A stretch of 24,238 nt of DNA. Origin: a virus. The notes beneath the pieces were generated by a model. The model was not told the origin of the DNA and did no database searches. It saw only the letters and a program-made list of their open reading frames with translations. A program made the translations under genes and the position numbers. Positions 4,095 to 17,890 of this stretch are shown here, piece by piece (within the stretch, counting starts at the first letter, position 1; every line of letters begins with the position of its first letter). Location: the IMG/VR virus record IMGVR_UViG_3300027963_000328, positions 1 through 24,238 of that record; one strand, written 5' to 3'.

Positions 4095-4496
4095 TCATGC
4101 CACGCCCCCATCTCGACCGTCCCCAGCCCGAAGGCGGGCGGCTTCGGCGCGGATCACTCGGGAAGCGTAAGCATTCCCAACTTTCTCCGCTACAGCCTCC
4201 AGCGCCTCGGCCTTGATTTCCCCGATGAAGAGGCCAAATGACTTGTCCCCCTTCCGTGCCGCCTGGAGCGCGGCCAACGTCCGCTTGTACTCGTTCGATT
4301 GCGCCTCAATGCTCGCCTTGGCGTCGGCGAAGGCCAGCGCCGCGTCGCAGAAGGCCCGCATTACAGGAAAGCAGGCTCTCATATCAGTCATCTCCCTCAG
4401 CGCTGCGGCCCCAGCCATAAGCGCGTCAAATACCTCGCCCTGCGGATACATCATTGCCTGCGCCTCCAGCTCTCTCGCGTGTTTTTTATTGGTCAT
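4095..4496 (-). CDS. Hypothetical alpha-helical protein
   Basis: A 133-residue protein with no recognised family. It is Ala/Glu-rich and predicted helical throughout, with a charged C-terminal end (ASRVIRAEAARLRAGDGRDGG). The start at 4496 is preceded by GAGGAG about ten bases upstream, and the gene overlaps the end of the upstream coiled-coil gene by 11 bases. Its stop shares an ATGA with a possible long form of the methyltransferase. An in-frame extension to 4838 is rejected because it lies over the upstream gene in another frame and reads as low-complexity Arg/Thr sequence. It sits among early genes; no function is proposed. Confidence 0.7.
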   Translation of the reverse strand: MTNKKHARELEAQAMMYPQGEVFDALMAGAAALREMTDMRACFPVMRAFCDAALAFADAKASIEAQSNEYKRTLAALQAARKGDKSFGLFIGEIKAEALEAVAEKVGNAYASRVIRAEAARLRAGDGRDGGVA

Positions 4497-5085
4497 CGTC
4501 TTTGTGCTCCTCGCACTTCTGATCAATCCCAGACCCGTCGCACCCGTAGCAGTCGTGCGTCTGGCCGTTGAGTTGCCACTTTCCGTTCTGGCATTCAAAC
4601 AAGCACCGCGTGCAGTTCGTGCAAGGCTTAATCGGGTGCGCCTGCTGCATCTCCATGTCAATCGCAGCGTCAAAATCGCGCTGCTCCATCCACTCGACGT
4701 CAAATACATACACCGCGATTCCCGGGTGCCACTTGGCCCATCGCCAACGCTCCGCGTCCCGCCGCAGCTCCGCCGCCTGGGCGAGAGCGGTGTTGCGGTC
4801 GGCTTCGGTCTTGAACAGAAGCGAATGGGCCTCCGCAACCTGCTCGTCCTTTTCGGCGACCTGCCGTTTGTACTCGGCCTTCCACGCTTTCGCCTCGTTC
4901 CGCTCCCGCCGCGCCACTTCCAGCGCCAGCTTCAGTTCCTCTTGCCGCTTTTCGAGGTCGTGGAGGGCGACGCGGAGGGTGTCGTTCGTGTTGCGAAGGC
5001 CATCCATCCCTTCGATGTTGATGGCTGCGGCCTCGCGTTCCCGCTGCGCGACTATGGCGCGTTGCTGGTCTTCGCTGGGAGTCAT
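4486..5085 (-). CDS. Coiled-coil phage protein with DnaJ-like zinc motif
   Basis: A 199-residue protein. The ATG at 5085 is preceded by GGAGGAGG and overlaps the upstream stop (ATGA). Residues 5-110 form a long charged coiled coil (runs such as LHDLEKRQEELKLALEVARRERNEAK). It then carries a segment common in uncharacterised phage proteins (DAERWRWAKWHP ending in FDAAIDMEM). The last 50 residues hold several Cys: CTNCTRC, C, then CYGCDGSG and C. CxxCxGxG repeats are the DnaJ-type zinc-binding signature. A zinc-stabilised scaffold or nucleic-acid-associated role is conceivable, but the function is unknown. Confidence 0.75.
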   Translation of the reverse strand: MTPSEDQQRAIVAQREREAAAINIEGMDGLRNTNDTLRVALHDLEKRQEELKLALEVARRERNEAKAWKAEYKRQVAEKDEQVAEAHSLLFKTEADRNTALAQAAELRRDAERWRWAKWHPGIAVYVFDVEWMEQRDFDAAIDMEMQQAHPIKPCTNCTRCLFECQNGKWQLNGQTHDCYGCDGSGIDQKCEEHKDDDQ

Positions 5086-5267
5086 GCCGCCTCCTCCATG
5101 TACTCCGCCCGGCGCCGGACCCGCGTGTCGTGCGCCTCGGCGTTGCTGAGCGCCCACGCGGCCAGCATCCGATAGGCCCGCGCTCGACCATTGTGCTGCA
5201 GCCACAGCGCCGACCAGCAAACCCCGCCCAGCAAACACATAATGCTTCCATAAATCATAATCTGCAT
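5082..5267 (-). CDS. Small single-pass membrane protein
   Basis: A 61-residue protein. Residues 3-23 (IMIYGSIMCLLGGVCWSALWL) form one hydrophobic membrane segment, followed by a basic, Arg- and Ala-rich tail. The start is supported by TAGGAG about eight bases upstream, and the stop overlaps the next ATG (ATGA). The positive tail after a single helix suggests an N-out, C-in or signal-anchor arrangement. It is found among early genes, not the lysis genes, so superinfection exclusion or a host-membrane role is possible. This is speculation; no family is recognised. Confidence 0.65.
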   Translation of the reverse strand: MQIMIYGSIMCLLGGVCWSALWLQHNGRARAYRMLAAWALSNAEAHDTRVRRRAEYMEEAA

Positions 5268-5276
5268 ACCTTTCTC

Positions 5277-5450
5277 CTACCGCTCAGCCTTGCGCCGCAT
5301 TGCGGCAATTAAGTCTTTGCACTTCTGGCCCTCGGCCTGCTCCGGCCAGACTTTTCGGGACACATGCAAGCCTCCCAAGTACGTAATCCTGATCTCGACC
5401 ATTTCCTCTCCCGTGTCAATGATTTGCACCTGCGGCTCAAAAGGGTACAT
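5277..5450 (-). CDS. Small hypothetical protein, 57 residues
   Basis: A 57-residue protein whose start lies inside the last codons of ssb (14-base overlap), with a weak purine-rich GAAGAAG upstream. It reads as a compact beta-rich domain (VQIIDTGEEMVEIRITYLGGLHVSRKVW) followed by a helix (GQKCKDLIAAMRRKAER). A longer in-frame form from 5528 is rejected because it would lie mostly over ssb. Its position suggests co-translation with ssb, but no family or function is recognised. Confidence 0.6.
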   Translation of the reverse strand: MYPFEPQVQIIDTGEEMVEIRITYLGGLHVSRKVWPEQAEGQKCKDLIAAMRRKAER

Positions 5451-5820: not shown

Positions 5821-6417
5821 TTACTTCACCTCCAGCCGATAACCGCCGCGCATCGCTGCGCCGCGGACCTCCCGGCCCTGCTTGATTGCGTTGCGAATCG
5901 CCGTTTTGTTCGGCGTCGATGTCTCTTTGATGAGCCCCGCGGCGTGCCCAACGGCCGAGGCGCTGAGGTCGTCGATAAGCGCCTGCCACAAAGCAGCCGG
6001 CATCGTCACCGTCACCGTGCGGAACTCGTCGTCCAACACCGTTTCGTTATCCACAATGACCGCGTCAGGCGTTGACTTCACGACCAGCTTCACCGTCTCA
6101 CCTTCGAGCGCCTTGAGCTTGCCTTTGTCGTCGGGACCGATAATCAGCACAGTTCTGATAACAAAATCCTCGATCCGCTCCCGCGCCGCGGCGTACTGCT
6201 TTTTGAGCGTTTTTAAACGGTCGATCTCGCGATCACATGCGGCCTCATGGGAATCGCAATGCAAGATAAACTGGCCGACGTTCTGACGCTTCTTAATCGA
6301 CATCCGCAGCGCAAGCTCAAGCGCTAGCCGATACTCGTCCTCCTGCTCCGGTGTGACGGTCTCGGCAGAGTCCACCAGCGCCATCAAGTCGGTCTCGATC
6401 TCATAAATATTAGGCAT
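5821..6417 (-). CDS. Gp157-family phage protein
   Basis: A 198-residue protein. The start at 6417 is chosen because GGAGG lies six bases upstream, and it overlaps the end of bet by eight bases. The sequence reads like the Sipho_Gp157 family: an N-terminal helical region with IYEIETDLMALVDSAE, a middle coiled coil (CDREIDRLKTLKKQYAAARERIEDFV), then a beta-rich half (KALEGETVKLVVKSTPDAVIV) and a C-terminal KTAIRNAIKQGREVRGA. Members are commonly encoded beside SSB and recombinases in phage early operons. The biochemical role is unsettled; help in resistance or recombination has been proposed. Confidence 0.85.
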   Translation of the reverse strand: MPNIYEIETDLMALVDSAETVTPEQEDEYRLALELALRMSIKKRQNVGQFILHCDSHEAACDREIDRLKTLKKQYAAARERIEDFVIRTVLIIGPDDKGKLKALEGETVKLVVKSTPDAVIVDNETVLDDEFRTVTVTMPAALWQALIDDLSASAVGHAAGLIKETSTPNKTAIRNAIKQGREVRGAAMRGGYRLEVK

Positions 6418-7222
6418 TGAGCGCCTCCAAGAGCTTCTCGTAGCAGGCCTGCGCATCGTCGCCGTTTTGGAATCCGGCCGCGTCGGTCACGTCCCACATG
6501 CTCAAGATCGCCAGAAAGTCTGCCCGGTCAGCCATGCGGCCGGCAACCTCGTCAAACATGGCGATCATGTTCTTTTTGCTGGTCCACGGGCGTACGACCT
6601 GCACCGCCTGCGCCTCGACCACCTGCGCTGGCTCCCGTTGCATCGGAGGCAAGTCCGCCTGCTTCATTTCGTCAGGCGTGTAGAGGCCCGCCAAGTCTTC
6701 AGGAAAGCACTTCCGGATAGCCAGGGCCTCCGCGCATTTAGCCAGTTGGTTGCAGGCCATTTTGGCCCACATGGCGTTGGGCTCGCCGCCCTTCTTTGTC
6801 TGGACGTATTCGGCATAATGTGCCACCGCGTAAATCGGCCGTTCAAAATCTTTGCGGAACACGCCAACCTTAGCCGCAATCGGCGCGACCGGTCGCGTCC
6901 AGACGTCTACCCAGACGCCATCTTCGGCGCACCAATACGGGCCGTCCTGGCCCCGATACAGGCCGCTGCGCTCAGCCACAAGCCTGAAGCCGTCTATCCC
7001 GGTCTGGAATGTCACCCCCATTTGTTGCGTCTCCGGATCCCACCGCTTAACCGGCTGGATATGTTTCCCAAACGGGTCGAGTCGTTTGGCGCGACACAAC
7101 TCCATCAGCAAAGCAAACTCGATATCTGTGCAGCCCTTGGCTATCGTCTGCTTGAGCAGGTCCAGCTGCTGCTTCGATACTTGCGCCGGTTGCGATCCGG
7201 CAACGATCATATGTGTGCTCAT
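6410..7222 (-). CDS. bet: Bet/RecT-type single-strand annealing recombinase
   Basis: A 270-residue protein resembling lambda Beta. Diagnostic stretches are TFQTGIDGFRLVAERSGLYR at about residues 71-90, then PIYAVAHYAEYVQ, and MWAKMACNQLAKCAEALAIR plus CFPEDLAGLYTPDEM at 151-186. It anneals complementary single strands in phage recombination and end-joining. The start at 7222 is preceded by AGGAG five bases upstream. The C-terminal 80 residues diverge from the core, as is usual for the family. No lambda-Exo-type partner nuclease is recognised in the window. SSB and a Gp157-family protein follow directly, completing the familiar early recombination module. Confidence 0.93.
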   Translation of the reverse strand: MSTHMIVAGSQPAQVSKQQLDLLKQTIAKGCTDIEFALLMELCRAKRLDPFGKHIQPVKRWDPETQQMGVTFQTGIDGFRLVAERSGLYRGQDGPYWCAEDGVWVDVWTRPVAPIAAKVGVFRKDFERPIYAVAHYAEYVQTKKGGEPNAMWAKMACNQLAKCAEALAIRKCFPEDLAGLYTPDEMKQADLPPMQREPAQVVEAQAVQVVRPWTSKKNMIAMFDEVAGRMADRADFLAILSMWDVTDAAGFQNGDDAQACYEKLLEALNA

Positions 7223-7395
7223 GTTCTCCTAAGATTTGATCCGACGTGCCTTGCGGCTTGCTCGTTCAACGGCGTCGGCCTCGTTGATCCTGCGTTATCT
7301 CCGTTTGTGATAGTCAGAGTTTCCTCTGCCCTCTTGGGGAATGCCCCCAAGCCCAGGCGCACGTATGCGCCTGCGCCTCGATGCACCGTTTCCAC
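7219..7395 (-). CDS. Doubtful short ORF upstream of bet
   Basis: An open frame of 58 residues, GTG-initiated, whose TGA overlaps the bet ATG (ATGA) as in real operon junctions here. It has no good ribosome site. The protein is unremarkable (Gly-, Arg- and Thr-rich, with TLTITNGDNAGSTRPTPL), and two strong inverted repeats lie inside it. It may be a small gene or merely the structured leader of bet. No family is recognised. Confidence 0.3.
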   Translation of the reverse strand: METVHRGAGAYVRLGLGAFPKRAEETLTITNGDNAGSTRPTPLNEQAARHVGSNLRRT

Positions 7396-7454
7396 GCGGC
7401 CAACGAATCCGGCTAGAGATAACTCCTTTCGAAGTTATTTGGTCCTTTTGGACC
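7333..7454. repeat. Cluster of four inverted repeats
   Basis: Four hairpin-forming inverted repeats lie within 122 bases: CTTGGGG/CCCCAAG (7333-7351, 5-base loop); CAGGCGCA/TGCGCCTG (7354-7373, loop CGTA); ATAACT/AGTTAT (7419-7438, 8-base loop); and GGTCC/GGACC (7441-7454, loop TTTT). All four stems are perfect as listed. None is followed by a T-run on the minus strand, so they are not ordinary terminators. On the minus strand the third hairpin carries an AAAGGAG ribosome-site-like run in its loop and right arm. They may be an RNA leader for bet, operator sites or an origin element. Confidence 0.6.
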
Positions 7455-7538
7455 TCACGCCAACACCCACACAAACCAGCAAATTCCCATAATGCCTGCC
7501 AAGGCTATCGCCTCAGCGTTGTCGTCCAGCCACGTCAT
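7455..7538 (-). CDS. Micro-ORF: 27-residue hydrophobic peptide
   Basis: A 27-residue ORF whose ATG overlaps the stop of the preceding micro-ORF (TGATG). After a short acidic start (MTWLDDNAEAIA) it becomes a hydrophobic, Trp-rich segment (LAGIMGICWFVWVLA) long enough for one membrane helix. It stops one base before the GGTCC/GGACC hairpin. The tight coupling with its neighbours and the clear hydrophobicity favour a real gene. No homolog is recognised and it is too short for a motif-based call. Confidence 0.45.
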   Translation of the reverse strand: MTWLDDNAEAIALAGIMGICWFVWVLA

Positions 7539-7639
7539 CACGGCCGCCGCCGTGTGTCGGTAGACACCAGCAGCACTACGCAAATAACCATTACCGCCGC
7601 GTAGGCCACCACCACAACCCCTGCTTCCCCCCATATCAC
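7538..7639 (-). CDS. Micro-ORF: 33-residue membrane peptide
   Basis: A 33-residue ORF starting with GTG that shares GTGA with the stop of the ribbon-helix-helix gene. It encodes one strongly hydrophobic helix (GVVVVAYAAVMVICVVLLVS) followed by a basic end (TDTRRRP), the layout of a single-pass membrane peptide with a cytoplasmic positive tail. It is followed without a gap by a second hydrophobic micro-ORF. No family is recognised. It could be a holin-like, toxin-like or exclusion peptide; I cannot choose between these. Confidence 0.5.
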   Translation of the reverse strand: MIWGEAGVVVVAYAAVMVICVVLLVSTDTRRRP

Positions 7640-7788
7640 TTCCCCACCCGCGCCAGTCCGGCCTGGATAAACTGCCCAGCTAAAGCCGACATGGAAACGC
7701 CGCTATGCGCGGCCAGCATTTTAAGCGCCCGGTGAATGGCAGAATCGACCCGCACCGGTTGCGTTGTTAACTTGTTAAGCACGGTCAT
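7636..7788 (-). CDS. Ribbon-helix-helix (Arc/CopG-like) DNA-binding protein
   Basis: A 50-residue protein. Residues 8-16 (TTQPVRVDS) would form the beta-ribbon that enters the DNA groove, residues 17-29 (AIHRALKMLAAHS) the first helix, and VSMSALAGQFIQAGLAR the second helix. This is the length and layout of Arc/CopG-type dimeric repressors. It is the first gene after the late terminator and sits at the head of the early block, so it is the best regulator candidate in the window. Its start lies six bases from a -10-like element, so the mRNA may be leaderless. Its stop overlaps a membrane micro-ORF start (GTGA). Confidence 0.75.
   Translation of the reverse strand: MTVLNKLTTQPVRVDSAIHRALKMLAAHSGVSMSALAGQFIQAGLARVGK
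7767..7778. promoter_or_regulatory. Palindrome, possible repressor operator
   Basis: TTAACTTGTTAA reads as TTAAC-tt-GTTAA, a perfect 5-bp inverted repeat lying about 10-21 bases after the predicted transcription start of the ribbon-helix-helix gene and within its first codons. Proteins of that family bind short palindromes and often repress themselves, so this is a candidate autoregulatory site. No second copy was seen nearby. Confidence 0.3.
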
Positions 7789-7794
7789 GAATCA

Positions 7795-7822
7795 ATACTA
7801 CACCTAATTTCGCCGATTGCAA
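7795..7822 (-). promoter_or_regulatory. Candidate promoter of the regulator/early operon
   Basis: On the minus strand TTGCAA (7817-7822) and TAGTAT (7795-7800) are 16 bp apart. The -10 ends six bases before the ATG at 7788, so transcription would begin at or next to the start codon. That would give a leaderless mRNA, as known for some phage repressors. An AGGTG about 12 bases upstream of the ATG could serve as a weak ribosome site if a start further upstream is used. The location directly after a terminator supports it. Confidence 0.45.
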
Positions 7823-7834
7823 CACCCTCCCCGC

Positions 7835-7866
7835 AAATAAAAAAGCCCCCAGCAAACGCCGAGGGC
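7835..7866 (-). terminator. Rho-independent terminator of the late operon
   Basis: Read on the minus strand, GCCCTCGGC-gttt-GCTGGGGGC forms a 9-bp stem with two G-U pairs and a 4-base loop, followed directly by TTTTTTATT. It lies 22 bases after the stop of the holin gene, so it ends the long structural/lysis transcript and separates it from the early regulator promoter. Confidence 0.85.
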
Positions 7867-7888
7867 AGGAGCAATCAGAGATGCTGAT

Positions 7889-8287
7889 CTATTCAGTCTT
7901 TTTGGTTTGGTCGCTTAACTTTGCCAGCGCATCGACCAAGAACCGCGGCAACGGCCACCCGGCGCGGCCCGCGTTTTCGGCGATAGATATCAGCTCGGTC
8001 GCGCAGAACCAAGTCGCCATCATGGCGGCCAGGTCGAATCCGACCGGATGACTATATGTAAACGCGTTGATAGCGGCCACCAGCAAAAGCGCAACGGCTT
8101 TTTTCACAAAGCCCCGGCGCGACACATCAGACGACACCGAGCCGGTTGACCACGCAACCAGGAATCCGGTCGCGAAGTCGATTGACTGCAAGATTAGCAA
8201 AGATTGCAATGCAACGCTCATGGATAGCCACAATCCAACCACCATTCCCGGCAAGCCGACAATCAGCTTTTTGATAGCCGGCGTCAT
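7889..8287 (-). CDS. Phage holin, type 4_1 (TcdE/toxin-secretion) family-like
   Basis: A 132-residue membrane protein with about three hydrophobic segments: residues 13-35, 62-78 and around 82-102. The pattern LQSIDFATGFLVAW, then S-x-x-S-x(5)-G-x-x-KK, and a late F-C-A-T-E-L-I-S-I-A-E-N-A-G with PLPRFLVDAL matches the Phage_holin_4_1/TcdE family. It would form the pore that times lysis. It is the last gene of the late operon, shares an ATGA with the preceding gene and is followed by a terminator. The YkuD-type enzyme three genes upstream could be the muralytic partner. Confidence 0.88.
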   Translation of the reverse strand: MTPAIKKLIVGLPGMVVGLWLSMSVALQSLLILQSIDFATGFLVAWSTGSVSSDVSRRGFVKKAVALLLVAAINAFTYSHPVGFDLAAMMATWFCATELISIAENAGRAGWPLPRFLVDALAKLSDQTKKTE

Positions 8288-8619
8288 AACGTTGGCTTGC
8301 TGCCAAATGCTTTAGTTACCAACACCTGAAACTCGGCCATCTTCTCGATAGCTCGCCCCATCGATTCTTCGTCGACAACCTCCTTGCCGGTCAGTCGCTC
8401 CATTTCGGAAACGATCAACGGAGCCGAGAACGACAGCGTTTCGAGCGCCGCCTGGAGTTTCTCAGGGCCTTTCTTATCGCCCAAATCAGCCTCGGCCTTG
8501 GCAATTGCCCGCCAAACGGTCGACGCAATCGGCGCAAATGGAGCCGGTACAAACATCAGCGCTATCGGCGCGATGGCCTGCGCCCCGCGTCCTACTTTCT
8601 TTAACCAATTCCAATTCAT
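8284..8619 (-). CDS. Small protein next to holin, possible membrane anchor
   Basis: A 111-residue protein. It has one hydrophobic, Pro/Ala-rich segment (residues 12-35, GAQAIAPIALMFVPAPFAPIAS) and an otherwise helical, acidic body with an LTGKEVVDEESM stretch. The start at 8619 is preceded by AAGGAGA, and its stop overlaps the holin ATG. It may be a second holin component, an antiholin or a chaperone of lysis, judging only from its place. I do not recognise a named family. Confidence 0.7.
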   Translation of the reverse strand: MNWNWLKKVGRGAQAIAPIALMFVPAPFAPIASTVWRAIAKAEADLGDKKGPEKLQAALETLSFSAPLIVSEMERLTGKEVVDEESMGRAIEKMAEFQVLVTKAFGSKPTL

Positions 8620-8634
8620 TGCAATATCTCCTTT

Positions 8635-9504
8635 TTAGTTTGCGGCTTCGTAAGACAAATCACAGCGTAATCCGCTTTTACTGCTTCTTGATATGTCGAA
8701 ATAGAGCCACCACCCGCCCACCGGGCGACCAGCGCGACCCTTCTCGATGTGGTATCCGCTCCCGCCGGACGCTTCGCGCTTGTAGCAGCCGCCGCGCAAG
8801 AATAGCTGTTGAGTTTCTGACGGCACGCCAAGATGGTCCAGCGAGGTAATGACGTTTTCGTCAGAGTTGCGCCGATGGATATGACCGCTGTAGTAAACGT
8901 CGGCCACGTACTGGCCGCGCGTGCGGGATTGGTCGATCATTCCGCGCGTCACCTCGCCGCCGCCGCCGTAGCCGTGGTGGTAGTGCAAGGTTTTCGAGAC
9001 GCAGTGCTTCAACGCATCCTCAAATCTGAACCGCACAAAGCCGGTGAACGGCAGATGCAGAACCGGCGATTTGTCCCGCCGCAGCGATCCGGTCAGGCGC
9101 TCTAGCAGGTCAGTCTGATGATGCCGCAGGATTGAAGTTTCGTGGTTGCCGTCCGCCAGAATTGCAATGTTTGCGGCGTACGGCCGGTAAAGGTTTTCGT
9201 GGAACGCCACCAGCCGATCCAGGTAATTCCCGCCGCGCATCTCTTCGCGCAGCCCAGCTTCGCTGGCCCTTTTGTCCCACTTGCCTTCCATGGCGCAAAA
9301 AACGTCCCCGAATTTACAGATCGGAGCGCCAGCGTCGACGGCCTCGCGGTGATGCTTGCGGATAAGGCCAAGGTCCGAGTGCGCGTTGTCAGAATGCTCG
9401 TCAGATATCAGCAAAGCCGTAAAGCGCTGAGTCTTGCCGGTAGCTTGGAAAATGATATCGGCAGAGGTCGCCGACTTGCGCTCGATTGTCCATGCAAGGC
9501 TCAA
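8635..9504 (-). CDS. Calcineurin-like metallophosphoesterase
   Basis: A 289-residue protein with the full set of dimetal phosphoesterase motifs. They are S-D-E-H (D35, H37), G-D at 66-67, G-N-H-E at 119-122, paired His in HYHHGYGGG at 175-181, and G-H-I-H at 207-210. It starts with TTG, preceded by AAAGGAG five bases upstream, and shares TTGA with the stop of the L,D-transpeptidase gene. The substrate cannot be told from sequence: cyclic nucleotides, DNA ends, phosphodiester-linked wall polymers and host alarm nucleotides are all possible. A place within the lysis genes is unusual, since phage phosphoesterases more often sit among early genes. No signal peptide is visible. Confidence 0.87.
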   Translation of the reverse strand: MSLAWTIERKSATSADIIFQATGKTQRFTALLISDEHSDNAHSDLGLIRKHHREAVDAGAPICKFGDVFCAMEGKWDKRASEAGLREEMRGGNYLDRLVAFHENLYRPYAANIAILADGNHETSILRHHQTDLLERLTGSLRRDKSPVLHLPFTGFVRFRFEDALKHCVSKTLHYHHGYGGGGEVTRGMIDQSRTRGQYVADVYYSGHIHRRNSDENVITSLDHLGVPSETQQLFLRGGCYKREASGGSGYHIEKGRAGRPVGGWWLYFDISRSSKSGLRCDLSYEAAN

Positions 9505-9992
9505 ACTGACTCCTTTACTTCAAGTGTTTTTGGTTGGCCAAACTTATCAGCCAACAGCCAGATTTGCCGCATATCCTCGTCGGCCACTCGCAGGCAGCCG
9601 TACGTCGGCCGCAGGAATCCGTAGATTTCAGCAGTGCCAGGATCACCGCCATGCATCCAAATACCAGATCGCTTTGCGGCCTTCACCGCATCGCCCGAGA
9701 TTGCCGAAAGCATCATCACCGGATTCGGGCCGTACGTAGACCGCGGCGCCACGACGCGGCCCCTCGCAGCGGCCCACAGCCCGGTTGGCGTATCGCCAAA
9801 CGGGAGCAGAGGGTTGCGGGAAGGGTTGCCTTCCTTGGTCGCCCTCTGCCCGTCTGCCTTGCCCAAAACTAAGCAGCGATAAATACCGGACCCATTTTGG
9901 TCTACTATTGCCAAGCGGCCAGCCCTGCCGCGGTCAGGGTATTTTGGCAACGTCACCACTACGTTGATCGCAATAGTATTGGTATCTTTCAC
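9501..9992 (-). CDS. YkuD-type L,D-transpeptidase domain protein
   Basis: A 163-residue protein that is essentially one YkuD domain. The N-terminal beta strands carry FGDTPTGLW at about residues 65-73, as in the family. H114 lies in IWMHGG, and the catalytic motif T-Y-G-C-L-R (C133) stands where S-H-G-C-x-R/H is usual, so His is replaced by Tyr. YkuD enzymes form or cut bonds at diaminopimelate in peptidoglycan. There is no signal peptide, so it would stay in the cytoplasm until the holin opens, as an endolysin does. No other muralytic gene is seen. It starts with GTG, sharing GTGA with its upstream neighbour. Confidence 0.83.
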   Translation of the reverse strand: MKDTNTIAINVVVTLPKYPDRGRAGRLAIVDQNGSGIYRCLVLGKADGQRATKEGNPSRNPLLPFGDTPTGLWAAARGRVVAPRSTYGPNPVMMLSAISGDAVKAAKRSGIWMHGGDPGTAEIYGFLRPTYGCLRVADEDMRQIWLLADKFGQPKTLEVKESV

Positions 9993-10225
9993 TTTTGTTT
10001 GGCCGGCGGAGCTTCACAAACCGGATCGCCTTCGGCGTTGGCAATCACCTTCAACCCATCACACGATTTAATCATACTAGCGATAGCCTTTTGCACTTCC
10101 GCTTCTGCCTCGGCCACCTGGAGCTTCAAGGTGGCCACTTTGGCAAGCGCTTTGAAATACGCCTTCTGCTCGTTTACCGTCACTTGCGCCAACGCCGGCA
10201 GGCACAAAAACACTAAATACTTCAC
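9989..10225 (-). CDS. Small exported coiled-coil protein
   Basis: A 78-residue protein with a very short signal peptide (MKYLVFLCLPALA, then Q) and a mature region that is almost entirely an Ala/Lys/Glu-rich coiled coil (LAKVATLKLQVAEAEAEVQKAI). Its two mature Cys (C55, C70) could form a disulfide in the periplasm. It starts with GTG, overlapping the preceding stop (GTGA). Its size, signal and coiled coil, and its place near holin and muralytic genes, recall spanins that bridge the two membranes. However, it lacks a clear lipobox or transmembrane anchor. The spanin idea is an inference. Confidence 0.65.
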   Translation of the reverse strand: MKYLVFLCLPALAQVTVNEQKAYFKALAKVATLKLQVAEAEAEVQKAIASMIKSCDGLKVIANAEGDPVCEAPPAKQK

Positions 10226-10596
10226 GGCTTTTCGGAACGTGCAGCAGCGAACGCGGCCCGCCGCTTGGCTTCAATACTGGCCTGCTTTGCTTTAGCCTCC
10301 TCCACGTCGGCCTTTAGTAAAGCGCTCGGATACTGAGGCGCCAGCTGTTCCGCCGTGTCCAGCGCCAAAGCCTTGACCAATTCCGCCAAGTTGGCATATT
10401 TTGCCTTGCAGTCCTGGGCGGTGTCGCAAACGGATTGGGTAGCCATCCACTGCCTCAAAACGTCCAGCGCGGCAACGGCCGGAACGCCCGAGACCTTTGC
10501 CACGGACTCAACGCCGCCCTCCGTCACGCGGATCACCATCGAAGTCTGCGCGAGGCCAAGGCCCGCGAACAATAGAGCACAAAAGTAGAGTTTCAT
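10222..10596 (-). CDS. Exported hypothetical protein
   Basis: A 124-residue protein. The start at 10596 gives a clean signal peptide (MKLYFCALLFAGLGLA, then Q); an in-frame extension to 10656 would bury it inside the upstream gene. The mature part begins with a short beta region (MVIRVTEGGVESVAKVSG). It then carries a Cys pair (C57, C63) and a long, highly charged helix (ADVEEAKAKQASIEAKRRAAFAAARSEKP). It shows the same architecture as the next gene: signal, Cys pair and helical stalk. The two could act together in the periplasm. No family is recognised. Confidence 0.65.
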   Translation of the reverse strand: MKLYFCALLFAGLGLAQTSMVIRVTEGGVESVAKVSGVPAVAALDVLRQWMATQSVCDTAQDCKAKYANLAELVKALALDTAEQLAPQYPSALLKADVEEAKAKQASIEAKRRAAFAAARSEKP

Positions 10597-10598
10597 AG

Positions 10599-11546
10599 TT
10601 ATTTCCAAGCCGGTATAAACGCCGTTGAGCCATCCGAAGTCACGATCCTGATCCAAGTGTACGGAGCCGTATTGGTCACGGCCGGAGAATTGGCGCCGAG
10701 CAAAGCCGTGCCCGCGCCAGTCGTGTTCGTTCCTGCAAACTTCTGAATGCCGTTGATTGTGAATATAGTGCTTGCCGCGGTTTGGCCGGCGCCGATGTCA
10801 AACAACACCGACGTCGCTCCAGTCGTTGCCAATTGATCTTTTACGCGCAACGTTCCAGACGTCCCAGTTAAGCCAACATCTAGTCGGTACGCTGGCGATG
10901 CGGTTCCTATTCCGTAATTTCCTACGCTGTCTATTCGTGCCCGTTCGGTAATATTTCCGCTTGACCGCGTACCGAACGCTAAATAACTAGCCGCGTTTCC
11001 ATCAGTAGCATTTTCTTTCGCGCCTCGAATAATAGCAAATTGAGAAAATTGTGTTCCGGTATACCGGCCACCAAATCCAATGCTGCCGCCAACGTCTGCC
11101 CCCAACGTTGAATTAGACTGCACGTTCAAAATAGCAGCATTGCCACCGATTGCAAAAGCTGTACTGTTTGCAATAATACTCGCGCCATAGTCAACTGTGT
11201 CGCCAGCTGTGTTTGCGGTGCCATTTGCGACTACTGTAAATTTATTTAATGGAGCCGTTGTTCCAACGCCAAACGTCCCACTTGTCGTCATGTTTCCCGT
11301 AACCTGCAGTTTATTTGCCGCGTCGTCCGTCGCGCTGCCCACGGCTAGGTTGCCAGTGCCGCTGAAATATTTGAAAAGAGACGTGCTGGTAGCCACTCCA
11401 GACGATGCGCCATACAAGATTTGATTCGTTGCAACAGCAGAAGCACCCCCCACTGCGCCGCCAGTCGGATTTGGCGACGGCCCTGGGATGCTGGTAATCT
11501 GCCCAAACCCAATTGCCGCGCAGGCTAGAAATAGAAGAACCTTCAT
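10599..11546 (-). CDS. Fibre-like beta protein with Sec signal peptide
   Basis: A 315-residue protein. From the start at 11546, preceded by GGAGG, it begins with a signal peptide (MKVLLFLACAAIGFG, then Q) and a Pro/Gly linker. It then carries repeats of the kind found in phage fibres and adhesins: GNLAVG...NKLQVTG (65-84), FGVGTTAPLNKFTV (92-105) and YGIGTASPAYRLDV (211-224). The C-terminal YTWIRIVTSDGSTAFIPAW resembles fibre tail ends. Its middle DNA is richer in A+T than its neighbours (a hand count of 10981-11040 gives 24 G+C of 60). A fibre with an export signal is odd, because virion proteins are assembled in the cytoplasm. It may instead decorate the infected cell surface. Confidence 0.7.
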   Translation of the reverse strand: MKVLLFLACAAIGFGQITSIPGPSPNPTGGAVGGASAVATNQILYGASSGVATSTSLFKYFSGTGNLAVGSATDDAANKLQVTGNMTTSGTFGVGTTAPLNKFTVVANGTANTAGDTVDYGASIIANSTAFAIGGNAAILNVQSNSTLGADVGGSIGFGGRYTGTQFSQFAIIRGAKENATDGNAASYLAFGTRSSGNITERARIDSVGNYGIGTASPAYRLDVGLTGTSGTLRVKDQLATTGATSVLFDIGAGQTAASTIFTINGIQKFAGTNTTGAGTALLGANSPAVTNTAPYTWIRIVTSDGSTAFIPAWK

Positions 11547-11911
11547 TACTGCCTCCACTGCGCGTAGTAGTTGAGCCCGGCGCCAGACGCCACGACGCTG
11601 AACCCGCGCACCATCCAAAGGCCGAACGGAATAGCTACGACGTAGCTAGAATTGGCCGGGATGGAAACGGCCGACAGGAACGCAATCGGCGAAGCGTCTC
11701 GCGACTGTAAAGTAAAAGTCAGCGCTCCGGCCGTTGTGTTGGTCACGGTGACGCCAAACAGCATCGCGTCGTACGGCGTCACCTGCGTCAGTGACGTCGG
11801 CGCGGCCTTGGGCGCGATATTCATGACCCCGCTGGTGTACGGCACCGGTACCGGCGTCTCTTGCGCAAGGCCCGCAAAGGCCAGCGCCATCAATAGCAAT
11901 ACGGTTCTCAT
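11546..11911 (-). CDS. Exported beta-rich protein
   Basis: A 121-residue protein with a signal peptide (MRTVLLLMALAFAGLA, then Q) followed by about 100 residues of predicted beta sandwich (FGVTVTNTTAGALTFTLQSRDASPIAFLSAVSIPANSSYVVAIPFG). The VTNTTAGALTFTLQ part resembles a host-like or fibre-associated immunoglobulin-like fold. It shares ATGA with the stop of the large ejection protein and TAATG with the next gene, so it is translationally coupled to both. Its function is unknown; it probably acts together with the fibre-like exported protein encoded next. Confidence 0.65.
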   Translation of the reverse strand: MRTVLLLMALAFAGLAQETPVPVPYTSGVMNIAPKAAPTSLTQVTPYDAMLFGVTVTNTTAGALTFTLQSRDASPIAFLSAVSIPANSSYVVAIPFGLWMVRGFSVVASGAGLNYYAQWRQ

Positions 11912-14900
11912 GGTTTGTTTTTATCCTTTTGGTCCATTGGCGTCGCGTAATCCTTCGCCACTTTTGATATGTTTGCCGCCGCGGCTATCGCGCCAGCGCC
12001 TCGCGAGAACTTTGGGTCGAGGCCACGGCTCAGCGCGGCCACGGCCTTGGGAGAATGCAAAAGCTGCGACAAAGCGCCCGCGCCAATTAGCATCGGGATG
12101 CCGGTTGTTGGATTGGTAAATGCGTAAGCAATTGATCCCGAACTAGTCACAAATAGACCAGAGCCAGACGGATTAGGGTTTTCGGAGGACTTCTTGGCCA
12201 GCGTGAAAAAGTTGTCAAGATCTTCAATCAAACCTGGATTCTTATATAGAATTTTCTTGGTCTCAGGCCCTAATGTCTGCCAGTCCCGCGCCATAGACGC
12301 CTCGCGCGAAAAGCCTCCCTCCGCGGTCGCTTTGGATAGCAACGTATCAATAAACGCCCGCCCGATTGCACGCATTTCACTTGGTGCCAGCTCGGCCACT
12401 TCTCGCAGTTGTGCTATGCCGGCGTCATTTCCCCAAGTCAATTGTTTAAACGCCTGCACTGGCTCAACGCGCAACGCCTTAAGCACGTCGGCCGCGTCGT
12501 ACTTCGCCACCGTTGCCGACCGGCCTTCCTTGAGCAGTGCCAAGGCTTCAGCGCCCCGCGAATTTGTCTCCCTCGCCGAGGCCTCCTCCAACTTCGCCCG
12601 CGCCTTTGGTAATCCGCTGCTGGCTATCTCTTCCGCGTTGCCGCCAAACGCCGCCGCAAAAGACTCAGCCGCAGTAGGAGGATCACCAAACAGGCCGGCG
12701 CCCTTCGCTGCAAACTCAGCATCGTTGGCGTACTGCCTTACTGCCGCCTGAACTTCCTGCATATTGCTTTGCGAAAGCGCCCGCGCAAGCTGCACCGACC
12801 GCGGAGAATACTGCCCCTCGCCAAAAAGACCGCCCTGGTTAAGAAATACCTCGATATCGCCGATCCCGCTATTCTTCGCGCTCTCGATTATGCCGACCGC
12901 CTCCTGCACGTATGGCGTAAGCGACCACTCGCCGCCCTCCACCCGCGCCAACGGCCCGGCGACACGCTCGAGACGCGCTTGCACCACCGACGGAACGCTG
13001 TCGAGTTGCGAAGGATCTTCAAAGAATCGGCCCAATAGCAACCGGTTGACGCGCTCCCGGCCAGGTTTGGTTATGCCCTTCTTGTCAATCAAGCCGGCCT
13101 GCTCTTGCGGCGAAATCACGCCGTCATCAATCAGCCGCTGCACAAGCGTTACGCCTTCGGCGTCCATCAGATCGGCCAGGGTCTTATTCACCCCTAGCGT
13201 CTCTAGCTTGCCGCCGATCTCCTCCAACATCTGCGGAGAGACGCGCCGAGAGTCAGCAATCGCGCGCTCCGCCGGCGTAAGGCTTGCCGTGCCAGTCTTG
13301 TTAAAATCTGTTACGGCCGCCTGCGCGCCGCGGCCCGACTGCACCGATGGGTCATCAATTACACGGACCAGCACCGGCTGCTTCATCCCTTGCAACTGCG
13401 CCGGATCAATCCCGAACATCTGCGCCTGCTGTTCAATCGTCTGCCGGTACCGCTCCGCCCCCTTAGCGTTCGACCGATACACTCTCTCCAATGTCATCAG
13501 CCTGCCATTTCCGCCCAGCGCCTCGCCACCCCCGCTCAGAATCGGCGGCCCGTTTACGGCGTCGGGGTTATTGTTCACCAAATACCGCTCGTCAAACTTG
13601 GCCGGAGTTGCGTTTTCTACCACCTTGCGTTGGTTGACCGCCTGCGTGTAGTCTCTATCGTTTTTGAGCGTGTAACGGGGATTGGGTTGAAAGTTTTGGC
13701 CCGAATGCGAAGCCTGGATATCGGCCAGCTCGCGAACTTCGTACCGTGCCCCGTACTCTTTCGCCGAACCAGGAACCGTCACGGACGTTTGCGAGCCACC
13801 GGCAGGCTGCCGAGTCGGCCCGGCCTCCTCCGCTGCGGCCATCAACGGCGCTGGCCCTTGCATCGCATTCCCGCCCGCAGGCTGCACCGGCCCGCGGCTC
13901 ATCGTCGGCGCTTCGTCAGCAAATTGCACCGCGGAGCCCACCGCCTCAGTAACCGCTTGGTCGAGCGACTTCAGCGCCGCCGAAGCCACACCCTGCGAAA
14001 GCGTCCGCAGCTCCGGCAAATCATCGACGCGCGCCAGTCCCTTGATTGTGCCAAGGTCCATGTCAACAATCGAAGCCGGCGCAAAATCCGGGCCGTCTAG
14101 AATATTTTCCATGGCCTTCATGCCCGGCGACGCCCGCTGCTGCGTCACCGGCAATTGTCGCCGTAACCGATCATAAAAAGGCCGGAGCTGCTGCTTTGCC
14201 GTCCGAAGATCCACCGGCAGTGGCATCTCTTCGTAAACCGGAACTTCTACCATTACAGGCTTGCCGCCTTCGTCCAGGTTGCCCGATGGTACTTTCTTTG
14301 TTCCGGTCTGCACCGTGCGAAGGTTAGCCGGATCGGCTTCAATCTCGCGCAGCGCCTCGTAGGCCTTCCGCGAATCGCCAGCAAAACCCTGCACGCGCCC
14401 CAAAACCGTATCGATCGCGCCCTGCCCCGCCTGCTCTGGCACCACCGGCCACGGCGAGGCTTCTGCCGCCAACTCCTGGCCAACTCGCCGAAAAGCGTCC
14501 CCCTGTGTTGCCTTAGCCCGCTCCGCCAACATGGAACCAATTGGAGTTGAGTCAACCACCTTTTGCAATACCTGCACCGTCTTCGATCCAGTCTGCGTTG
14601 CAGCGTCCAGCGGAATACCGCGTCGAATGCCAAAGTCTACCGCGGCCTGCGTAACAGCGTTTGCGGGACGTGGCAAAAACCTCGACGGCATCGCCTTCGC
14701 AACTTCAGGCATTGCCGCCAGCCCCGCCAAATCTCCAACCGCTTCTCCAGTTCCAAACGTGTCGCCGCTTCCCGCAGCCGTGCCCAGCTTCTCTGCGGCC
14801 GCCGCGATAGGCGGACCAATTCCAGGCAATAGCCCGGCAACCAGCCGACCGCTTGCGTCTAAATACTGTCCCTTCTTGGCTAAATCGTAGGCTTGCGCGA

Positions 14901-15207
14901 ACTGGTCGCCTTGCGCCACGACCATATCCGACACCAGCGCCCCGGCTGGCCCCATAACCATCTGGGAGACCTTGCCGCGTGTATCCTCGGCCGGCGTGAC
15001 GATGCGCTTGCCCATCTCGTAAATATTGCCGAGGGTATTGACCACTAGGCCCTTGGCCGCGCCTGCGCCAAACTGTAACGCCTCGTCAAACCACGACGCC
15101 GGTTTCGGCTCGTCGGATTCCTTCACGATGCGAAAGCCAGGAGGCGCAGGCGGAGCGCCCGCCATGCGAAAGCCAGGCGGAGGCGGTGGGATTTTAGGAT
15201 CAGCCAT
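11908..15207 (-). CDS. Large ejection-type protein with ddrB-like ParB domain
   Basis: A 1099-residue protein in the gp16 position of a P22-like cassette. Its N-terminus is Pro-rich with a PPGFR-type duplication. An amphipathic helical region follows, with LFGAGAAKG-like hydrophobic stretches at about residues 45-60 and 120-165. Residues 474-640 match the ddrB-like ParB domain: ARYEVRELADI, then NPRYTLKNDRDY, and the signature G-G-N-G-R at 565-569. Such domains occur in phage internal proteins (P1 DarB/Ddr types) linked to protection of incoming DNA. The C-terminal 450 residues are helical with a membrane-like stretch near 1030-1060. It is probably carried in the head and ejected with the DNA. 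The role of the ParB domain is an inference. Confidence 0.78.
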   Translation of the reverse strand: MADPKIPPPPPGFRMAGAPPAPPGFRIVKESDEPKPASWFDEALQFGAGAAKGLVVNTLGNIYEMGKRIVTPAEDTRGKVSQMVMGPAGALVSDMVVAQGDQFAQAYDLAKKGQYLDASGRLVAGLLPGIGPPIAAAAEKLGTAAGSGDTFGTGEAVGDLAGLAAMPEVAKAMPSRFLPRPANAVTQAAVDFGIRRGIPLDAATQTGSKTVQVLQKVVDSTPIGSMLAERAKATQGDAFRRVGQELAAEASPWPVVPEQAGQGAIDTVLGRVQGFAGDSRKAYEALREIEADPANLRTVQTGTKKVPSGNLDEGGKPVMVEVPVYEEMPLPVDLRTAKQQLRPFYDRLRRQLPVTQQRASPGMKAMENILDGPDFAPASIVDMDLGTIKGLARVDDLPELRTLSQGVASAALKSLDQAVTEAVGSAVQFADEAPTMSRGPVQPAGGNAMQGPAPLMAAAEEAGPTRQPAGGSQTSVTVPGSAKEYGARYEVRELADIQASHSGQNFQPNPRYTLKNDRDYTQAVNQRKVVENATPAKFDERYLVNNNPDAVNGPPILSGGGEALGGNGRLMTLERVYRSNAKGAERYRQTIEQQAQMFGIDPAQLQGMKQPVLVRVIDDPSVQSGRGAQAAVTDFNKTGTASLTPAERAIADSRRVSPQMLEEIGGKLETLGVNKTLADLMDAEGVTLVQRLIDDGVISPQEQAGLIDKKGITKPGRERVNRLLLGRFFEDPSQLDSVPSVVQARLERVAGPLARVEGGEWSLTPYVQEAVGIIESAKNSGIGDIEVFLNQGGLFGEGQYSPRSVQLARALSQSNMQEVQAAVRQYANDAEFAAKGAGLFGDPPTAAESFAAAFGGNAEEIASSGLPKARAKLEEASARETNSRGAEALALLKEGRSATVAKYDAADVLKALRVEPVQAFKQLTWGNDAGIAQLREVAELAPSEMRAIGRAFIDTLLSKATAEGGFSREASMARDWQTLGPETKKILYKNPGLIEDLDNFFTLAKKSSENPNPSGSGLFVTSSGSIAYAFTNPTTGIPMLIGAGALSQLLHSPKAVAALSRGLDPKFSRGAGAIAAAANISKVAKDYATPMDQKDKNKP

Positions 15208-15209
15208 GG

Positions 15210-16697
15210 CTACTTAGCCCCCGCGCTTACTACAACCCATGACGACCCGTTCCAGCCCAGCCTCTGGCCGTTTGGCCCTTCAGCGTACGCCGTGAATTTG
15301 TCAGAGGCCGCCGGTGCCGTTGCCGTTGGTGCGTCAATTCCCAATTGCACGGCCGCCCTACCTGCTGCAACGCGAAGCCCATTTAGCACTTCAAGCCGAG
15401 CCTCTGCTTTTTGCTTAAGCGTTTTTTGTTGGTCGCCAGGTTGTGGGAAAAACGTCTTCTCGTCGTTTTCGTACTCGCTCGCAGCAATCGCCGCGCCGGA
15501 CTCCTTCCGCAGCCGTGCCTCGGTGAACTCCCGCTGCGCCTGCTTGTAGAGCTGGTTTTCTTCGGTCTGCATCATGTTCGGCAGGAACTTGTAGGCCACC
15601 TGCGCCGTGCCTGACTTGCCAACCATGAGCCCTTCCATTTGCTCCAACCGTCGATTGGCTGAAAGAGCGCGCCCATAGTAACCAGCCGCCGCCTGCTCAG
15701 ACGAGGTCGGCGGCTTCTGATTTCTAGTGATCTCATTAAGCTCCCGCGCCCTTGCGTCCGTCATGTCCTGCCCGCGCACCGTAACGCCCTGGCCCGCGGC
15801 CGCCGATGCAGCTGTCATGTCCTGCCCGCGCTTCGTTACCTCCTGACCGGCTTTCGTCGATGCGGCTTGCGCCTGCTGCTCCGGCGTCATGCCCATCGTC
15901 ATAGCCTGCTGCGGCGTTTTGTTCAGCAGCATTGCTCGAATTTCAGGCGACACCTTTGCATAGTCAAACGTCCGCCGAAGTTCTTCGACCTGAACAGGAT
16001 CGTTCATATCGGTGGCTGCAACCAACCCAGCCGCATACTTCGTCTGCTCTTGAACGCTCTTCCAGCTGTTCTCTGCTGTCTTTTGCTTGAACTCGTCGTT
16101 TTTGATCTGAAGTTCAATGTCTTTTTGAGCATTTGCGATTTGGTCATTGGCCTGAATAGCTTGATTGCGACCCTGCGCGACAAAGTTCTCATCGTACGCA
16201 GGTGGCATCTCTCCCGGCTTGAACAGGCCATCTTGAACGCCTTGAGCGAGGAAGCGTGAGTAGGCTTGCGGCCTTTGCTCTGGAGGTAGGCCCATGATTG
16301 CGCCCGACATCGACGCAACAATTGCCAGTTTGTTTTTCTGGTTGTCGAGTTGCGTCTTGACGTTGTCAAGTTGCACCTTCGACTCGGCCCGTCGCTGCGA
16401 TCCGTACGCTACGGCCATCTGCCCATAGCCGCCTTCTGCGAGCCCCTTTTCAACCGCGTAAGAATCGACACCGCCATCGGGTTTGGAGTGTTGCGATAGA
16501 AGCCTGGAAAAAAGATCTTGGCCGCTTCGCTGCTTTGCTTGGTCGGCCTGCTGCAACCGCGCCTGCTCGATCTCAATACCCCTCAGCTGACCCTGCTGGC
16601 TCAGTTGCTGGAGGTTCATTTGCTTCATTCGAGCGCCGACCAAATCCAGCGGCTCCGGCACTTTTACCGATAGTGAAATGTTTGGGTCAATTGCCAT
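15210..16697 (-). CDS. Gln-rich helical virion protein, gp20-position ejection candidate
   Basis: A 495-residue protein, mostly helical and rich in Gln, Ala, Lys and Glu. The N-terminus (MAIDPNISLSVKVPEPLDL) resembles that of proteins encoded after gp7-like genes in other podovirus-type phages. Residues 25-60 form a Gln-rich coiled coil. Two 18-residue tandem repeats (G-Q-x-V-T-x-R-G-Q-D-M-T) lie in the middle. The last residues (GPNGQRLGWNGSSWVVV) look like a small capping motif. It follows the gp7-like gene by a TAATG junction and precedes the gp16-position gene, which fits P22 gp20. There is no direct family match, so this is a positional assignment. Confidence 0.65.
   Translation of the reverse strand: MAIDPNISLSVKVPEPLDLVGARMKQMNLQQLSQQGQLRGIEIEQARLQQADQAKQRSGQDLFSRLLSQHSKPDGGVDSYAVEKGLAEGGYGQMAVAYGSQRRAESKVQLDNVKTQLDNQKNKLAIVASMSGAIMGLPPEQRPQAYSRFLAQGVQDGLFKPGEMPPAYDENFVAQGRNQAIQANDQIANAQKDIELQIKNDEFKQKTAENSWKSVQEQTKYAAGLVAATDMNDPVQVEELRRTFDYAKVSPEIRAMLLNKTPQQAMTMGMTPEQQAQAASTKAGQEVTKRGQDMTAASAAAGQGVTVRGQDMTDARARELNEITRNQKPPTSSEQAAAGYYGRALSANRRLEQMEGLMVGKSGTAQVAYKFLPNMMQTEENQLYKQAQREFTEARLRKESGAAIAASEYENDEKTFFPQPGDQQKTLKQKAEARLEVLNGLRVAAGRAAVQLGIDAPTATAPAASDKFTAYAEGPNGQRLGWNGSSWVVVSAGAK
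15744..15851 (-). repeat. Two tandem 54-bp repeats in the ejection gene
   Basis: Two in-frame 54-bp units (15798-15851 and 15744-15797) encode A-G-Q-E-V-T-K-R-G-Q-D-M-T and A-G-Q-G-V-T-V-R-G-Q-D-M-T, each followed by five more residues. The identical core GTCATGTCCTGCCCGCGC occurs at 15760-15777 and 15814-15831. Unit length can vary among relatives by slippage. Confidence 0.85.
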
Positions 16698-17890
16698 TAC
16701 GGTCTACCGCCTTGCGTGAAGTTGCTTAAATTCATTCCCGGAAACATCCTCGCGTCGTAGCCGCGATTGGTCGGCAGGCTTGCAGTCGAAGCAAATGGAC
16801 TTCTGCCTTTTTTATTGGCCGCGTTAGCCGCATCGACGGCAGCGTTACCAATCCCGCTTATCGCCCCGGTCCATGCGTTAGCGCTGCCCACGCGGCCCGC
16901 GGCGGTAGCCCTGGCCGCATCCGTCAGGTAGTTGGCCGAACCTTCAGCGCCGCGGATGCCATAGTTGCCAACCGCGGTCGCTCCCTGTTGCGTCAGTTGC
17001 GCCAGGCTATTGGCCCCGCTCATGCCAAACTGGCCGGCCGCGTTTGCCCCAGCCATTCCGACATTGCCAACGTACTGTCCCGTCTGCGCTATGTTCTCGC
17101 CCGTCAGCCGGCCGAGGTTCATCTGATTGGTGCTCGCCTGGCCTCCATACGCTCCCAACGCCGCGTTGCTTCCAGCCGTAGCCCGCTCGCCAATCCCGGT
17201 TAACGTGCGCAAGGTGTCGAGGGTGCCTTCTCTGTTTGTCGTGAACGTCTTCTGCGCCCGATCAAACGCCGAGCCAAATGACGTGCCCGCCAAGCCCTGC
17301 CCGAACGCCGCCATACCTTTCAGCGTCCCGCCGCTACTAATAGCGCCTCGGGCCGCCGCTGATCGTTCTAGCGCCTGCTGCCCCTGCTGTAGCTGGAACT
17401 GGTAGCCTGGATCGTTTTGAAGGTCTTTTCCGTCAAAGGAAAACTGTTGCAGCAGCTGGCCGCCCGGTGCGGTCATTTCCGCTAACGTCTTCGCGCCCTG
17501 CTGGCCCACTTGCTGGTAAGGTTGCAGGTTTGCTTGCTGCTGCGCCAACGTCGTCGCCAGCGTTTGATTTGCGGCCGTAGTCCCGGCGCCGTACGCATCA
17601 ATTGCCCGACCGCTAGCGTCGACGGCCCCAGCCTGCGCTGCTTGCGTTGCCTGCTGCACGCCGCCAACCGCCTGCCCCGTGGCCGCGTCAATGCGCTGCG
17701 CTCCGGCGCTAGTGGCGTCGCTTACACCGGTTGCCGCGTTGTTTGCCGCCTGCTGCACCTGCGCCGCGGCCGCGGTCGCCGCTTGCGATTGCGTACTAGC
17801 TGCGCTGTTGGCCGCTCGGGAGCCTAAGATACCGCCGATGGCAGAGGTTGCGCCGCCAATAATGGCAGGAATGAAAGGTACTACAGGCAT
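16697..17890 (-). CDS. gp7-like DNA-ejection protein
   Basis: A 397-residue protein. A hydrophobic N-terminus (FIPAIIGGATSAIGGILGSRAAN) leads into a long Ala/Gln-rich region. A motif typical of podovirus gp7-like/DNA-transfer proteins follows: NDPGYQFQLQQGQQALERSAAARGAISSGGTLKGM, then AFGQGLAGTSFGSAFDRAQ (about residues 155-210). The C-terminal half is Gly/Ala-rich. It follows the gp14-position gene with a 10-base overlap, as gene 7 follows gene 14 in P22. It would be packaged in the capsid and released into the cell envelope to help DNA transit. Confidence 0.78.
   Translation of the reverse strand: MPVVPFIPAIIGGATSAIGGILGSRAANSAASTQSQAATAAAAQVQQAANNAATGVSDATSAGAQRIDAATGQAVGGVQQATQAAQAGAVDASGRAIDAYGAGTTAANQTLATTLAQQQANLQPYQQVGQQGAKTLAEMTAPGGQLLQQFSFDGKDLQNDPGYQFQLQQGQQALERSAAARGAISSGGTLKGMAAFGQGLAGTSFGSAFDRAQKTFTTNREGTLDTLRTLTGIGERATAGSNAALGAYGGQASTNQMNLGRLTGENIAQTGQYVGNVGMAGANAAGQFGMSGANSLAQLTQQGATAVGNYGIRGAEGSANYLTDAARATAAGRVGSANAWTGAISGIGNAAVDAANAANKKGRSPFASTASLPTNRGYDARMFPGMNLSNFTQGGRP

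Follow-up and report, generated by a model that had tools for sequence, protein, structure and literature searches.

Four consecutive open reading frames (P4, P3, P2, and P1) in a 24,238-base viral fragment, hereafter the window, encode proteins with short predicted Sec signals, one of them a tail-fibre homologue. The fragment is P22-like podoviral by gene content (Pfam and PHROG matches), and we consider it probable, judging from sequence, that P1-P4 are the podoviral form of a recurring cassette in which a receptor-binding fibre is exported and meets the virions at lysis. More tentatively, at somewhat below an even chance, we propose an acidobacterial phage group in which virion fibres would be Sec-exported and disulfide-bonded in the periplasm, with the last steps of virion assembly taking place outside the cytoplasm, as the cell lyses or later. 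As far as we found, a tailed-phage assembly route through exported fibres has not been described previously, and our literature search, which covered open-access papers, yielded no precedent for Sec-exported tail fibres.

Table 1. Features of the window, with coordinates, strand, and distinguishing properties.
Feature	Coordinates	Strand	Properties
Holin (Phage_holin_4_1)	7889-8287	-	PF05105, E=2e-24; 90% identity in L069
Conserved 111-aa protein adjoining the holin	8284-8619	-	94% identity in L069, 57-61% in others
Metallophosphoesterase-like protein	8635-9504	-	phrog_7339, E=1e-8
YkuD (L,D-transpeptidase-like) protein, candidate endolysin	9501-9992	-	PF03734; no signal
P1, predicted exported, helical	9989-10225	-	78 aa; signal MKYLVFLCLPALA before Q, 13 residues; Cys55/Cys70
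P2, predicted exported	10222-10596	-	124 aa; signal MKLYFCALLFAGLGLA before Q, 16 residues; Cys57/Cys63
P3, predicted exported, tail-fibre-like	10599-11546	-	315 aa; signal MKVLLFLACAAIGFG before Q, 15 residues
P4, predicted exported	11546-11911	-	121 aa; signal MRTVLLLMALAFAGLA before Q, 16 residues
Protein at ejection-protein position	11908-15207	-	1099 aa; ddrB-ParB domain PF18763, E=3e-17; directly upstream of and overlapping P4
Ejection-family protein	16697-17890		
Protein without signal, homologous to the mature N-domain of exported siphophage fibres	18348-18869	-	no Cys pair
Head closure Hc3	19330-20943		

Following the 1099-aa gene, whose product matches a Rhizobium phage 'putative injection protein' over a short stretch, the gene order is P4, P3, P2, P1, YkuD, metallophosphoesterase, 111-aa protein, and holin. 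The PF18763 domain of the 1099-aa protein is related to DarB-like antirestriction proteins. The genes are closely chained, with ATGA where the upstream stop at 11908 meets the P4 start, TAATG between the P4 stop and the P3 start (with GGAGG 5' of the latter), a gap of two bases between P3 and P2, and GTGA at both the P2/P1 and P1/YkuD junctions. On re-reading the sequence, the coordinates, frames, and junctions given in the original prediction were correct, as were the Cys pairs it placed in two of the four proteins (the mature parts of P3 and P4 have no Cys), and its treatment of the four genes as one cassette is supported. Near-identical contigs elsewhere (e.g., L002/L063) add no independent information.

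Signal peptides were called with a crude hand-written scorer, not SignalP. A filter for a signal with A, G, or S before Gln was passed by 5 of the 179 window ORFs, four of which are P1-P4, while triplet-shuffled windows gave 0.0008 passing per ORF, or ~0.14 expected per window; the P1-P4 signal cluster is therefore more than chance. Scorer and shuffles, together with the P2 start that is invariant in seven homologues, bear out the 13-16-residue signals ending in A or G before Q on which the original prediction was built. A further signal-like start, in ORF 4486-5283 (minus strand; MFAGRGLLVGAVAAA before Q), overlaps other frames and is probably spurious. Longer TTG starts also exist for P2 and P3; the ATG start of P2 is favoured because the homologue alignment supports it, and that of P3 because of the TAATG coupling and ribosome-binding site.

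P3 is the fibre-like member that had been expected among the four. It matches the PHROG tail-fibre family phrog_18345 (E=5e-7), its core has matches among Pelagibacter phage tail fibres, and it has GIGT.SP/LDV-type repeats with the tip WIRIVTSDGSTAFIPAWK at the C-terminus. Residues 88-224 share 81% identity with part of a signal-bearing 1737-aa fibre of siphophage L003, and the C-terminal part shares 40% identity with the fibre end of L018. Both P3 and its siphophage homologues have tail-fibre homology (phrog_18345, phrog_9942, and tail-fibre matches in named phages), and their genes occupy the tail-fibre position, after ejection or hub genes. The assumption that virion fibres normally lack a Sec signal holds for five named fibres that we checked, but not for P3 or any of the related siphophage fibres examined; similarly, the homologues are fibre proteins, as the original prediction had allowed for, but their starts include the signal rather than lying elsewhere.

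The L003 fibre begins with the signal MRAFLLLLPVLMFG followed by QTKF, and after it come a small LA-Q protein with a Cys pair, a predicted exported 141-aa protein, YkuD (67% identity), and metallophosphoesterase (89%). Further siphophage contigs were found by searching with YkuD, metallophosphoesterase, and the fibre N-domain, and every one examined has a short signal of the A/G type before Gln at the start of the long gene that immediately follows the tail hub (MRTIIITALLPFSLLA and MRLLALLAFSLPALA before QF, MNKPIILCALAALAAFG before QS, MLKTLILCALLPVVAFS and MRQLLLILATLAAFG before QA, and MRIFLSFVFTVAALG and MRLYLYILSASLAFG before QS). Second signal-bearing fibre-type proteins lie farther downstream, near the replication side, in G402 (6103-7872; L182, 589 aa) and G397 (31616-32218; L173, 200 aa). 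Many siphophage contigs also share the downstream block of YkuD endolysin candidate, metallophosphoesterase, small protein, and holin, at up to 90-94% identity. The metallophosphoesterase is common to podophage and siphophage cassettes (89-90% identity in siphophages L003/L069); YkuD lies just above the PF03734 threshold (23.7 vs. a cut-off of 23.4 bits), with its catalytic Cys/His motifs present and HGG and GC conserved in six phages. Window positions 7889-9504 and positions 6546-8157 of siphovirus L069 both encode a holin, a 111-aa protein, and a metallophosphoesterase, which share 90-94% identity. This lysis-side block points to recent exchange between unrelated tail types. It was fair to say that no standard phage module has this layout, but many viral contigs carry the module as well.

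Among the small companions, P2 has homologues in seven aligned phage loci, in which the start, the LA-Q signal, and both Cys are invariant. Its relatives mostly lie close downstream of an exported fibre gene, and P2 is a candidate fibre partner or chaperone; as with a Tfa-like chaperone, the gene adjoins the fibre gene in the window and in most relatives. P2 has no Pfam match and no significant PHROG match, known Tfa families included, and neither P2 nor P4 has a match among named phages. P2 combines a beta-hairpin with helices, and a structure model from seven sequences (pLDDT 49) was too poor for a fold search. The mature part of P4 is beta-rich and lacks Cys; it has no Pfam or PHROG family match, and its weak single-sequence all-beta model (pLDDT 52) was likewise too poor for a fold search. 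P1 shares 32% identity with the L003 protein at the same place (9355-9636), which itself has an LA-Q signal and a Cys pair. No independent full-length homologue of the same architecture was found for P1, P3, or P4; what is common is the fibre-signal theme, P2, and the downstream block.

Moreover, cysteines track the signal. The N-domain motif C-L-x...(W/F)-x-x-C of the exported fibres retains its Cys pair in 25 of 25 tested signal-bearing proteins (six clusters at 60% identity) and in none of eight signal-less homologues, where both Cys are absent (Fisher P = 3e-4, computed on clusters). The eight are the window product 18348-18869, which also has a C-terminal K1-lyase_C domain (PF24146, E=2e-20), those of L036 and L019, and five named phage fibres that include two close relatives, L221 and L222; L213, a shorter exported fibre outside the 25, has the first Cys only. 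Cys density per 1000 residues is 10.0 in complete exported fibres vs. 2.8 in signal-less fibres, the Cys of exported fibres lie mostly in close local pairs along the whole protein, and their count is even in 16 of 20 complete exported fibres (P=0.006).

The signal style resembles that of a likely host group. In 400 kb of a Bryobacteraceae (Acidobacteriota) genome, 13 of 44 signal-like proteins have Gln at +1 of the best site, and 23 of 44 have A, G, or S before Gln at any site, typically after 15-17 residues; in E. coli samples the corresponding counts are 0/15 and, by the looser any-site measure, 6/15. Signals in a second Acidobacteriota genome are longer than in the Bryobacteraceae genome. 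Gln+1 frequencies by best site are ~23-30% in G001 and G360 (loci L127-L167), of the same phylum as a Bryobacteraceae metagenome-assembled genome (MAG). Bacterial relatives of YkuD are mostly from Acidobacteriota, including that MAG, and a search of bacterial genomes with the metallophosphoesterase gave no match. A prophage origin of the MAG match was rejected, the gene being chromosomal and located at the end of a contig. The YkuD relatives and the signal length point indirectly to an Acidobacteriota host, probably a Bryobacteraceae-like one, in agreement with the phylum first proposed. Taken together, the Cys evidence and the host signal style favour real export as independent lines of support, and the predicted export of all four proteins is further supported by the signals themselves, the Gln+1 statistics, and the invariance of the P2 family.

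The Q-rule, in which signal peptidase I exposes Gln at +1, has been treated as a Bacteroidetes trait (PMC5837995; PMC10653852), and Acidobacteria are not mentioned in one of these studies (PMC5837995). P1-P4 carry the predicted signature of that rule, a short Sec/signal peptidase I signal with Gln at +1, and two (G198 and G360) of the three Acidobacteriota genomes checked encode a plant-type glutaminyl cyclase. The difference from Bacteroidetes is that the pattern is less strict here (~23-30% by best site) and is found in Acidobacteriota genomes and their presumed phages, such that the rule may extend to Acidobacteriota. No signal was found on long fibre or structural genes of the Bacteroidota phages B124-14 and 11b or of the examined stretches of crAss001 and phi14:2, so signals on fibres are not general to Q-rule hosts. 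Flavobacterium phage FCL-2, a cultured phage, encodes gp71 (L189 45363-45806), a 147-aa hypothetical protein with the signal MKTIVITLLLSISTYS before Q and then the fibre-type GIATTTPTETLDVNG; we saw no other exported fibre-like protein in the five Bacteroidota phages covered, some of which were covered in part.

From the signals, fibre homology, Cys pairs, and conserved cassette, we infer a route in which a fibre-type receptor-binding protein and its small companions would be made as Sec/signal peptidase I precursors, bearing short Gln+1 signals in the style of the host. Cleavage would occur before Gln, with cyclisation to pyroglutamate possible, and the exported proteins would fold in the periplasm, forming disulfides where Cys are present. 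They would first meet the virions when the cell is opened by the holin, YkuD, and the remaining lysis functions. For siphophages, the exported fibre would probably be the virion's own and would dock on the tail hub during or following lysis, while in the podovirus window P3 would probably be an additional fibre, with P2 as its partner or chaperone.

Whether the exported fibre joins the virion is addressed by three siphophage records (G397-G399) with terminal direct repeats of 127, 127, and 59 bases, which are apparently complete genomes. None has a signal-less fibre candidate: their fibre-type genes (978-1156 aa and ~200 aa) all bear signals, and the other large genes scanned in G397 are replication, head, tail-tube, or methylase genes. 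When two siphophage types are compared, identity falls to 45-70% from -374 to +150 bases around the fibre start, against ~70-100% in the hub sequence upstream and 87-100% in the fibre sequence just past the block. The block takes in the C-terminus of the hub, the signal, and the N-terminal part of the fibre. Such co-divergence is expected if hub and fibre parts bind each other, and it suggests that the siphophage fibre docks on the tail hub, although it could be ordinary mosaicism. With T4 long fibres and P22 tailspikes, the late attachment step can be carried out in cell-free conditions, which makes docking during or following lysis feasible. That the siphophage exported fibre is a virion fibre has, on the evidence for and against, an even or slightly less than even chance.

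Alternatively, the exported fibre-like proteins may not be virion parts but periplasmic binders of nascent LPS or an outer-membrane receptor, or soluble decoys released at lysis, which would block superinfection and the loss of progeny to debris; this would combine a T5 Llp-like function with the build of a receptor-binding protein. We regard this as the main rival reading, unlikely but worth serious consideration. Export signals and predicted oxidised folding are compatible with it, as is the masking of a receptor from within by T5 Llp (PMC9586334), and, as would suit a free protein, the shared domain of the exported fibres is not preceded by the N-terminal extension seen in the five named fibres of cyanophages and Pelagibacter phages. 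P3, moreover, need not be a virion fibre, because the signal-less candidates 18348-18869 and 21777-23855 in the window could supply the virion. The latter, a 692-aa tail-fibre-like gene, is flanked by two adaptor-like genes of one family (phrog_12985/phrog_637; 20943-21773 and 23863-24237, minus strand), an arrangement that possibly reflects an adaptor duplication or insertion of a fibre gene between adaptor copies. The surface alteration, decoy, or exclusion roles raised in the original prediction are possible, but we do not favour them for the siphophages, where all fibre candidates bear signals, the fibre gene directly follows the hub gene, and the fibre N-terminus co-diverges with the hub; the late-operon position also fits virion genes.

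The remaining explanations carry much less weight. P1 and P2 could be spanin-like lysis proteins with the fibre an unrelated neighbour, as their genes adjoin YkuD and holin and the proteins are short, helical, Cys-bearing, and predicted to be exported; by sequence inspection, however, neither has a lipobox or a retained transmembrane segment, their sites are of the signal peptidase I type (A before Q), and in most relatives P2 follows the fibre gene, not the holin. The spanin suggestion of the original prediction is not supported on these grounds, and the reading is improbable. It is very improbable that the N-terminal segments are hydrophobic virion or membrane anchors, or chance, on cytoplasmic proteins that are ordinary fibres: export and cleavage are predictions from sequence and the same domains are signal-less in other phages, but Gln at +1 with A, G, or S at -1 recurs across divergent signals, the Cys pairs track the signal exactly, and the signal style matches the host group. 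Chance signals were rejected on the Cys and Gln evidence. To a lysogenic-conversion or adhesin module altering the surface of infected or lysogenic cells we assign the slightest probability. FCL-2 gp71 offers a similar exported fibre-like protein, and there are weak fibre-core matches in genomes of the phylum of G001; this adhesin reading is weak, as the cassette is part of the late operon running from tail to lysis genes, its proteins showed no T9SS or autotransporter domain and no outer-membrane anchor, and there is no close chromosomal homologue.

Tail fibres of phages are as a rule synthesised and joined to the particle within the cell, and tailed phages are taken to assemble wholly in the cytoplasm. 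Signal-bearing fibres with tracking Cys would imply either that assembly spans two compartments and ends at lysis, or that a receptor-binding protein has been co-opted as a shield that the cell releases. Phage proteins linked to the Gln+1 style of their hosts would also provide a sequence mark for the host phylum and suggest a reach of the Q-rule beyond Bacteroidetes. The GIGTTxP/LDV fibres of Pelagibacter phages and cyanophages (phrog_18345, phrog_9942) share the repeat and N-domain families and, in the siphophages, the fibre position, but the five named ones checked have no signal and no N-domain Cys pair, and they carry the N-terminal extension. Similarly, the tail genes of P22-like podoviruses (Hc3, ejection proteins) follow the same order up to the last ejection protein. 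In P22 the tailspike gene comes next, whereas here its position is taken by four exported proteins rather than a cytoplasmic tailspike. T5 Llp and N15 Cor are also phage proteins outside the cytoplasm and near receptors; they are lipoproteins, whereas the proteins described here have no lipobox and the architecture of a receptor-binding fibre. A receptor-blocking lipoprotein of this kind was rejected for want of a lipoprotein signal. The closest published parallel that we found is in Porphyromonas gingivalis phages (Nixviridae), which encode exported Q-rule proteins of undescribed role, possibly acting on the outer membrane (PMC10367356). These likewise have phage Sec signals that expose an N-terminal Gln and match the signal style of the host, but their hosts are Bacteroidetes and they are not reported as tail fibres, whereas in the phages studied here the main fibre gene itself bears the signal, together with the companion P2 and the Cys pairs.
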